Source of the DNA: Phycisphaerae bacterium RAS2
Lineage (GTDB): Bacteria; Planctomycetota; Phycisphaerae; UBA1845; UTPLA1
DNA length: 64,000 bases
Direction: 5' to 3'
NCBI GenBank assembly: GCA_007753915.1
Contig: CP036352.1
Span: 3,907,306 to 3,971,305 of the forward strand
The translations under genes and the position numbers were made by a program. Under the pieces are notes generated by a model, which saw only the letters and a list, made by a program, of their open reading frames with translations, was not told where the DNA came from and did not search any database. Below, piece after piece: positions 10,704 through 56,597 of this stretch; the stretch's first letter is position 1, and each line of letters starts with the position of its first letter.

Positions 10704-11216
10704 ATGGAAACGCTCCTTACCTGCCCCAAGTTCTTCATCGTGCGGAAGTCCGTGCGCGGACGCGATGGCCGGGACCATTTGCGGGAGATTGTCGTTCATC
10801 CCGGCGCGGTCGTCGTGCTACCGCTGCTGGACGACGGACGCTGCCTGATGCTGCGGCACGTTCGGCCGTCGGTGGACAAGGTGCTGTGGGAGCTACCGGC
10901 CGGGACGCTGGACAAGCCGGGCGAACCGCCCGAGTCGGCGGCCGCTCGTGAACTGGAGGAGGAGACAGGCCACCGCGCCGGGCGAATTGACTCCCTTTGC
11001 GAGTTCCACCCGTCGCCGGGGATCTTGAGCGAGCTGATCCGCGCGTACGTCGCGCGCGATCTGTCGCCAACGCACCAGAACCTCGACGCCGGCGAGGACC
11101 TGGACATCGTGCCGACGCCGGTTGAGGATGCCATAAATATGGCACTCGACGGGCGCATCATCGACGCGAAAACGATCATCACGCTGCTGGTCTGGAACGG
11201 GAGGGGAAGGCCATGA
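10704..11216 (+). CDS. NUDIX hydrolase, ADP-ribose pyrophosphatase-like
   Basis: NUDIX enzymes hydrolyse nucleoside diphosphate derivatives; this one resembles the ADP-ribose pyrophosphatase (NudF) branch. The NUDIX box is visible as ELPAGTLDKPGEPPESA followed by ARELEEETGH, with the catalytic REUxEE glutamates. The downstream FHPSPGILSE segment fits the ADPRase branch. Length 170 aa. A TATAAT hexamer occurs at 10662-10667 upstream without a convincing -35 box. The last four bases (ATGA) overlap the start of the M50 protease gene, which indicates translational coupling. Confidence 0.88.
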   Translation: METLLTCPKFFIVRKSVRGRDGRDHLREIVVHPGAVVVLPLLDDGRCLMLRHVRPSVDKVLWELPAGTLDKPGEPPESAAARELEEETGHRAGRIDSLCEFHPSPGILSELIRAYVARDLSPTHQNLDAGEDLDIVPTPVEDAINMALDGRIIDAKTIITLLVWNGRGRP

Positions 11217-12247
11217 GCTGGGAGCATCGGGAGTGGGCCGGCGGCGGCGGATACCGCGAGGGCGGACGCTTCGCCGACAATCCACTGAATTGGGCGCCGA
11301 CGATCGGAACCGTTTCGGGCATTCGAGTCCGGGTGCATATCCTCTTCATCCTGTTCATTTTCTTTGAACTGCTCGGGGCGAAGTACTCGGTCTCCTATAC
11401 CGCCCAATGCATGTTCGTTCTGTTTGGGTCGGTCCTGTTGCATGAGTTCGGGCATTGTCTCGCCGGCCGGCGCGTCGGCGGATTCGCAACGGACATTCTG
11501 ATGTGGCCGCTGGGGGGATTGGCGACGGTCGAAGCTCCGCGGCGACCCTGGCCGCAATTTCTTACGGTTGTCTTTGGCCCGTTGGTCAACGTCGCGCTGT
11601 TTTCGATTGCCGCGGGGCTGATGTGGTCGGGCGTATTTGGTGAGCGAAGCGTGCCTTTCAACCCGTTCTTCGGCTGGGAATCAGACGCTTCCACCTGGGC
11701 GAATCCACGGCTCTGGGCCCGACTGATTTTTCAGATTAACTGGGTGCTCTTCCTGTTCAACCTCTGGCCCATGTACCCGATGGATGGCGGTCGAATGCTG
11801 CAATGTGTGCTTTGGTGGAAACTTGGCCACAATCGCTCGCTGTCGATCGCCACGACGGTCGGCATGGTGGCCGCAATCGTTTTGGGTTTCTACGGACTCG
11901 CCAATCAACAGTGGATGCTGCTGGCAATTGCAATCATGGGTTACATGGCCTGTCGCAACCAGCGCATGCTGCTGAAGTTCGGCGCTTACGACGGAAGTGA
12001 GTCTCAAGGACCGCGATTTGATTTGTCGCAAGATCGACCGAGGCGCGATGGTTGGCTCACCAGACTTCGGAAGCAGCGGCAGGCGCGTGCACTGGAGCTT
12101 CACCGCGAGAAACAGGCATCGCTTCAAGAAGAAGTCGACCGTATCCTCGAGAAGGTCCACCAGAATGGCATTCAGAGCCTGACCGAGCGCGAGAAGAAGA
12201 CCCTCGCCGATGCGACGCACAAGCAGCAGGCCGCCGGGCGGCGATAA
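11213..12247 (+). CDS. M50 (site-2-protease-like) membrane metallopeptidase
   Basis: A 344-residue intramembrane zinc metalloprotease of the M50/S2P group. The zinc-binding motif HEFGH is in a TM helix (LFGSVLLHEFGHCLAG), and the third ligand motif is NLWPMYPMDGGR. At least five hydrophobic segments are visible. A C-terminal charged, coiled-coil-like region of about 90 residues (KQRQARALELHREKQASLQEE) is cytoplasmic by prediction. There is no PDZ domain, unlike RseP. It is coupled to the NUDIX gene by an ATGA overlap; substrate unknown. Confidence 0.88.
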   Translation: MSWEHREWAGGGGYREGGRFADNPLNWAPTIGTVSGIRVRVHILFILFIFFELLGAKYSVSYTAQCMFVLFGSVLLHEFGHCLAGRRVGGFATDILMWPLGGLATVEAPRRPWPQFLTVVFGPLVNVALFSIAAGLMWSGVFGERSVPFNPFFGWESDASTWANPRLWARLIFQINWVLFLFNLWPMYPMDGGRMLQCVLWWKLGHNRSLSIATTVGMVAAIVLGFYGLANQQWMLLAIAIMGYMACRNQRMLLKFGAYDGSESQGPRFDLSQDRPRRDGWLTRLRKQRQARALELHREKQASLQEEVDRILEKVHQNGIQSLTEREKKTLADATHKQQAAGRR

Positions 12248-12278: not shown

Positions 12279-12363
12279 GTAGCAACCGCGCGACCGATCG
12301 GGCGAGCGCGTTTGAACCCGAGCACTGCGAAGCCCAAGAAAGCGCAACACACGGAGGCATGAC

Positions 12364-12606
12364 ATGAAGATCCACATCACCTACTGCAATCAGTGAAACT
12401 ATCTGCCCCAAGCCACCGGTCTGGTGGCTGAATTGACGCAGAAGTACGGCAAGGACAAGGTCACGTGTGAACTCACGGCCGGCAGCGGCGGCGTGTTCGA
12501 TGTGACGCTCGACGGCAAGCTGATCTTCAGCAAGAAGCAGGTCGGGCGGTTTCCCACCTACGGCGAAATTCCGCTCGCGATCGACATGGATCTAGCGAAT
12601 CGCTAG
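12364..12606 (+). CDS. SelW/Rdx-family selenoprotein with in-frame UGA (Sec11)
   Basis: An 80-residue thioredoxin-fold redox protein of the SelW/SelT/SelH (Rdx) group. The ATG at 12364 is preceded by GGAGG with 6-nt spacing. Codons 7-11 read Tyr-Cys-Asn-Gln-UGA, which gives the family's CxxU redox motif after the first beta strand (MKIHITYCNQ). The frame continues through family features: a GSGGVFDVTLDG segment, LIFSKK and GRFPTYGEI. The UGA is at 12394-12396, and a hairpin with loop GGUCU follows 14 nt later. Ordinary gene calling would see only a fragment starting after the UGA. The stop TAG overlaps the convergent minus-strand gene. No selA, selB, selC or selD is visible in the window, so decoding must rely on genes elsewhere. 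Confidence 0.88.
12411..12429 (+). promoter_or_regulatory. Bacterial SECIS-like hairpin in the SelW-like gene
   Basis: A perfect 7-bp stem (agccacc / ggtggct) closes the pentaloop GGTCT. The apical loop begins 21 nt after the UGA, within the window in which SelB recognises bacterial SECIS elements. The GGUCU loop is the same loop core as in the E. coli fdhF SECIS (from memory). The hairpin is inside the coding sequence, as expected for bacteria. Confidence 0.82.
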
Positions 12607-52680: not shown

Positions 52681-52685
52681 TAAAA

Positions 52686-52792
52686 GCTGGCACTGACCTA
52701 CTCTCGCCCGGTAGGACTACCATCGGCCCCAAGGACTTCACTACTGAGTTCGGAATGGGATCAGGTGTTTCCCCTTGGGCTTGGGCACCAGC
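52686..52792 (-). rRNA. rrf: 5S ribosomal RNA
   Basis: On the minus strand: GCTGGTGC start, the internal segment CCGAACTCAGTAGTGAAG, and GTGCCAGC end that pairs with the start. Length about 107 nt. It is the downstream member of the 23S-5S operon. Confidence 0.9.
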
Positions 52793-53045
52793 AAAGGATC
52801 GCCGGACCTGTCGGCCCGACGAACCTGTTATCCTTAGAACCGCGGGAGCGTTTCCAGACAAACGACGACTTTAACATCACCGAGAACTTTCCTCTGCCTC
52901 CCACGGGTCAGGTACAAATGGAGAATAGAGTGGACATGCGGAGCGGCCGAATCTCGAAGATCCTTGCCGAACGTACGACTTTGATGTCGGGAGACACGGG
53001 CCGGCGATTTGAGTCGCCGACGTCGCAACAGCCCGTCATCAATGT

Positions 53046-55953
<2,908 letters not shown>

Positions 55954-56368
55954 ACATTGATGACACGCTGTCAAAACCGTGACACCACGCTCCCTTGCGG
56001 AACCGCCGTGCCCCGACTCATCCCTCGTGCCGCCAACCTGGCCAGCCGCCGTCGGCGCTCTATTGTCTTTCACCCCACCTGAAAAACCTTCCGAGTCGAT
56101 CGCTTGCGCGATCGGCCCCTGGGCCTCTCCGATGGACCGAAATCCAACAGAACAATAAGGATCTTGTGATTCGGATTACTCTCACATATCCACTCTATTC
56201 AATTGTCAAAGAGCATCGAGTCTGCCAACAACCGGCCTGCGTATCCGCCGACCTGCCGCCGCAGCACCCGGCGACACGCTTTCCACCGAAAGCCCGTCGC
56301 CCGACGCTGCCTACCCGATCTTCACTTGTCACTGCAGCGGTCCAACGTCAACCGCCCGATTCCTTCAC

Positions 56369-56441
56369 TGGAGCCGACCGGGATCGAACCGGCAACCCCT
56401 AGCTTGCAAAGCTAGTGCTCTCCCAATTGAGCTACGGCCCC
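56369..56441 (-). tRNA. tRNA-Ala (UGC)
   Basis: 73 nt. Acceptor GGGGCCG pairs with CGGCTCC, anticodon loop TTTGCAA gives UGC, T-arm GGTTCGATCCC is intact, CCA is not encoded. Confidence 0.95.
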
Positions 56442-56523
56442 GATCTCTTCCGGACCGCCCGGTCCGACTTCCGCCGGACCGTTTCGCTCGTCGGTCTGCA
56501 CAACTCGGCAAGCCGCTCGATAT

Positions 56524-56597
56524 TGGGCCCGACAAGATTCGAACTTGTGACCTCGTCCTTATCAGGGACGCGCTCTAACCAACTGAGCTACGAGCCC
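56524..56597 (-). tRNA. tRNA-Ile (GAU)
   Basis: 74 nt. Acceptor GGGCTCG pairs with CGGGCCC, anticodon loop CTGATAA gives GAU, T-arm GTTCGAATC present. It lies upstream of tRNA-Ala, in the order of a normal rRNA spacer. Confidence 0.95.

Follow-up and report, generated by a model that had tools for sequence, protein, structure and literature searches.

A selW-like gene interrupted by one UGA codon

The window, meaning the whole 64,000-nucleotide stretch of DNA that was analyzed, carries a selW-like gene of the Rdx/SelTWH family on its plus strand at positions 12364 to 12606. This interval is a single frame of 80 codons plus a TAG stop codon, and the sole interruption is a UGA at codon 11 (12394–12396, plus strand). 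Read through this codon, the translation is MKIHITYCNQ-U-NYLPQATGLVAELTQKYGKDKVTCELTAGSGGVFDVTLDGKLIFSKKQVGRFPTYGEIPLAIDMDLANR-stop. The putative selenocysteine (Sec) completes a CxxU redox motif, Cys8-Asn-Gln-Sec11, encoded at 12385–12396 on the plus strand; the CNQU residues, 8 to 11, lie close to the N terminus of the protein. A Shine–Dalgarno sequence, GGAGG, is found at 12353–12357 on the same strand, with a gap of 6 nt to the start codon, an ATG at 12364, and CACACGGAGGCA is also conserved in a relative from the same genus (L094).

The neighborhood of the gene is also conserved in L094. The ORF upstream, at 11213–12247 on the plus strand, contains the motifs HEFGH and PMDGG, a pair typical of M50 site-2 proteases. 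Elsewhere in the window, the minus strand carries tRNA-Ile, tRNA-Ala, 23S rRNA, and 5S rRNA in that order (52685–56597), which is part of an ordinary rRNA operon.

Family searches were made with the read-through protein, entering the UGA (Sec) as Cys. The protein matches the Pfam Rdx family (PF10262) over residues 2 to 69 with an E value of 1.2e-20, TIGR02174 with an E value of 9e-18, and the NCBIfam model NF041051, the SelT/SelW/SelH family (seleno)protein, with a score of 94.7 bits, where the cut-off is 88. The Rdx/SelTWH match spans residues 2 to 71, covering either side of the UGA. A preliminary description of this DNA had proposed a SelW/Rdx identity, a good Shine–Dalgarno sequence, and a UGA that specifies Sec, and all three proposals are borne out, the last by a lone in-frame UGA within a full-length family match. 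The description had also called the gene hidden, which goes too far, since current curated models detect it, NF041051 above its cut-off. A thioredoxin-like fold would agree with the sequence matches to solved family members, and a single-sequence AlphaFold model shows a plausible order of strands and helices at low confidence (mean pLDDT only 60).

Naive gene callers had been predicted to shorten the gene to a fragment from 12424, and a mechanical ORF caller yields exactly this, a GTG-start ORF of 60 aa at 12424–12606. Were the UGA a true stop codon, this ORF would be an independent 60-aa protein, just as the caller presents it. All relatives share a first strand and a Cys/Sec redox motif, and such a protein would have neither; it also gives no reason for the loop codon bias described below. 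With a family match that is continuous through the UGA, and with that bias, an independent downstream ORF is extremely improbable and was rejected. Of the codon differences from the same-genus relative, 23 are synonymous and 5 nonsynonymous, which points to purifying selection on the frame and counts against a pseudogene.

Conservation of the UGA and the selenocysteine machinery

The UGA is shared widely among relatives. Of 392 genomes sampled from the phylum, 143 carry a homologue, which in nearly all of them has exactly one TGA in frame, and in a sample of the class, a homologue was found in 88 of 397 genomes, every one of the 88 with an in-frame TGA. In the relatives whose sequences were read out, [YF]CxxU ends with the TGA. 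This TGA is homologous to the UGA described here, and not at the nonhomologous position that the preliminary description had named as counting against its proposal. An alignment with Cys-containing homologues, also suggested beforehand, places Cys exactly at the UGA column: this column is the second Cys of CxxC in structure 2fa8 and in L140–L150, a set from Nitrospirae-type and Desulfobacteraceae genomes that was gathered with a peptide pattern having Cys at the Sec site and consists only of Cys forms from other phyla. The L140–L150 proteins share YCxTCNYRP.

These comparisons bear on the chance that the locus is a pseudogene or a sequencing error, in which the TGC or TGT codon of an ordinary Cys-type Rdx gene was mutated or misread to TGA. 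A single base separates TGA from either Cys codon, and Cys homologues do exist. Against this stand the in-frame UGA throughout the class homologues and in nearly all of those in the phylum, the purifying selection on the frame, and the full Sec machinery in the genome. The conservation of the UGA across independent genomes led to the rejection of this explanation, whose probability is minimal.

The machinery was looked for in the same 4.32-Mb single-contig genome that carries the SelW-like gene. The check for selA, selB, selC, and selD proposed in the preliminary description found all of the components: tRNA-Sec (71 bits versus 47 required; anticodon TCA by ARAGORN), SelB (297.8 bits, above the cut-off, with its C-terminal part matched too), SelA directly downstream of SelB (508.6 bits), and SelD (372 bits). 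A genome lacking SelB or tRNA-Sec had been named as speaking against a selenoprotein, and this genome encodes both. The Sec-decoding trait is present in the genome and very probably in use. The SelD gene (G000:C1:2633461-2634384, minus strand; locus L018) has an in-frame UGA in the segment CAGUAGKLPRG, and judging from this sequence, the SelD of this genome is very probably itself a selenoprotein.

SelW and tRNA-Sec tend to occur together across the class. Both were found in 73 genomes, SelW only in 15, tRNA-Sec only in 64, and neither in 245, an association with a Fisher p of about 1e-26, uncorrected for phylogeny. The 15 genomes with SelW but no strong hit to tRNA-Sec all carry SelA or SelB, so the missing tRNA-Sec is best explained by missed matches or assembly gaps. 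Three fairly complete genomes of the same order (G436, G547, and G602) gave no tRNA-Sec match even on closer look; they nevertheless carry a UGA-type SelW, SelA, and SelB, and either an assembly gap or an unusual tRNA-Sec would account for them. Six genomes of the same family (G492, G543, G551, G638, G644, and G673) each carry a pair of SelW-like genes, usually with an in-frame UGA in both; the second copy in G673 is without a UGA.

Within the order, the UGA-coded SelW is nearly universal, occurring in 16 of 16 genomes sampled from the same family and in most other members, and it is rare elsewhere in the class. Perhaps the protein has a conserved redox role that contributes to the retention of the Sec trait in the lineage, a tentative reading that may well not hold.

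The hairpin after the UGA

A bacterial SECIS hairpin is found at 12411–12429 on the plus strand. The sequence AGCCACC-GGUCU-GGUGGCU forms a 7-bp stem (12411–12417 paired with 12423–12429) around a 5-nt loop (12418–12422), with a spacing of 21 nt from the UGA and a predicted folding energy of −12.8 kcal/mol. The published bSECIS model describes a loop of 3–9 nt, a stem of 4–16 bp, a G within the first two loop nucleotides, a distance from the UGA of 16–37 nt, and a minimum free energy of −7.5 kcal/mol or lower (PMC13188914). The hairpin fits this model in every respect, and the SECIS-like hairpin of the preliminary description, with loop GGUCU 21 nt past the UGA, was placed correctly.

Judged alone, the hairpin is unremarkable. 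Its z score ranges from −0.8 to −2.7, varying with the stretch folded, and 17% of synonymous versions of the sequence fold equally well. A search with Rfam gave no SECIS family match within the 64,000-nt window. The convincing case for the hairpin comes from comparative data and not from the lone fold. Across 82 distinct sequences, a mean of 5.82 of the 7 pairs is formed versus 4.68 under synonymous codon redrawing (200 trials, sd 0.09, maximum 4.93). This conservation is carried by the five loop-proximal pairs, one of which occurs as C-G in 62 sequences and as G-C in 11; the two outermost pairs are poorly kept among relatives (44/82 and 52/82).

The most distinct sign of conservation is the codon choice in the loop. 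Of the 82 sequences, 77 have U as the third base of the loop codon. Where it encodes Gly it is GGU in 32 of 33 cases, versus 60 of 486 Gly codons downstream (p 1.5e-25, uncorrected for relatedness), and where it is an AGY Ser codon it is AGU in 45 of 48 cases, versus 13 of 106 AGY codons downstream (p 2e-23, likewise uncorrected). This bias suggests that selection at the RNA level maintains the nearly invariant G-U of the apical loop. The contrast between Sec and Cys forms is incomplete, with AGU at the loop codon position in 4 of the 11 Cys homologues (two of the four identical); the AGU codons in L140–L150 may be left over from a Sec ancestor or may be due to chance.

The hairpin also bears on whether the UGA might be read through without Sec, for example, by insertion of Trp or Cys through a suppressor or a change in the code. 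Any read-through would yield the complete protein, and nothing specific favors this version of it. A complete Sec machinery, a hairpin of the bSECIS type, and the presence elsewhere of Cys, which commonly takes the place of Sec, at the aligned position all count against it, and on these grounds it was rejected as having next to no likelihood.

The SelW-like protein among known selenoproteins

The locus almost certainly encodes a SelW-like selenoprotein of the Rdx family, with SelB-dependent Sec insertion at 12394–12396 giving a putative CxxU thioredoxin-fold oxidoreductase. The frame, the homology, the conservation of the UGA and the hairpin, and the presence of the Sec machinery are all direct observations. 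We infer the insertion of Sec in the organism and the redox role of the protein. In the proposed mechanism, SelB carrying Sec-tRNA-Sec would bind the hairpin just 3′ of the UGA, and selenocysteine would be placed at this codon. The product would have 80 residues, a thioredoxin fold, and a CxxU redox center. As its family suggests, it probably serves as a small oxidoreductase of the thiol-selenol type, perhaps linked to glutathione.

The gene is real, and ordinary gene calling would shorten or miss it, but it does not represent a new type of system. Bacterial SelW-like selenoproteins had been described beforehand as rare, which is contradicted by their frequency in the phylum sample and by environmental surveys. 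Reports of these proteins from bacteria date back to 2004–2006. They were the most abundant prokaryotic selenoprotein family both in the Sargasso Sea, with 48 genes (PMC1088965), and in the Global Ocean Sampling (GOS) data, with 427 sequences (PMC2398784). A 2006 survey listed 10 SelW-like proteins, considered Sec probably the original state, and remarked that in bacteria that use Sec, SelW seldom switches to the Cys form (PMC1794560). The wide retention of the UGA-coded SelW in the order provides more examples for asking why this switch is rare. A 2015 study described SelW genes in Epsilonproteobacteria that annotation had overlooked (PMC4607533). The family is a common one, known for two decades, and the gene described here is a correct but ordinary find.

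The protein resembles the bacterial SelW-like family (PF10262, TIGR02174, and NF041051, the last named after Campylobacter) in its domain, its length of about 80 aa, the CxxU motif, the UGA position, and the downstream bacterial SECIS, and there is no essential difference. The Cys-type SelW-like protein Atu0228 (PDB 2fa8) matches with an E value of 4.6e-11 and its CxxC aligns with the CNQU motif; it differs in having Cys for Sec and therefore lacks a UGA. Eukaryotic selenoprotein W (PDB 2npb) belongs to the same CxxU family and is a distant sequence match (E value 0.0044). Eukaryotic SECIS elements are located in the 3′ UTR. They also differ in structure from the bacterial ones (PMC1088965). 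SelW of Campylobacter jejuni (CJnc60) is also 80 aa long and was also missed by annotation owing to UGA recoding; its full-length translation past the Sec site was confirmed by Ribo-seq and proteomics (PMC11955535), whereas the SelW-like gene described here is known from its sequence.
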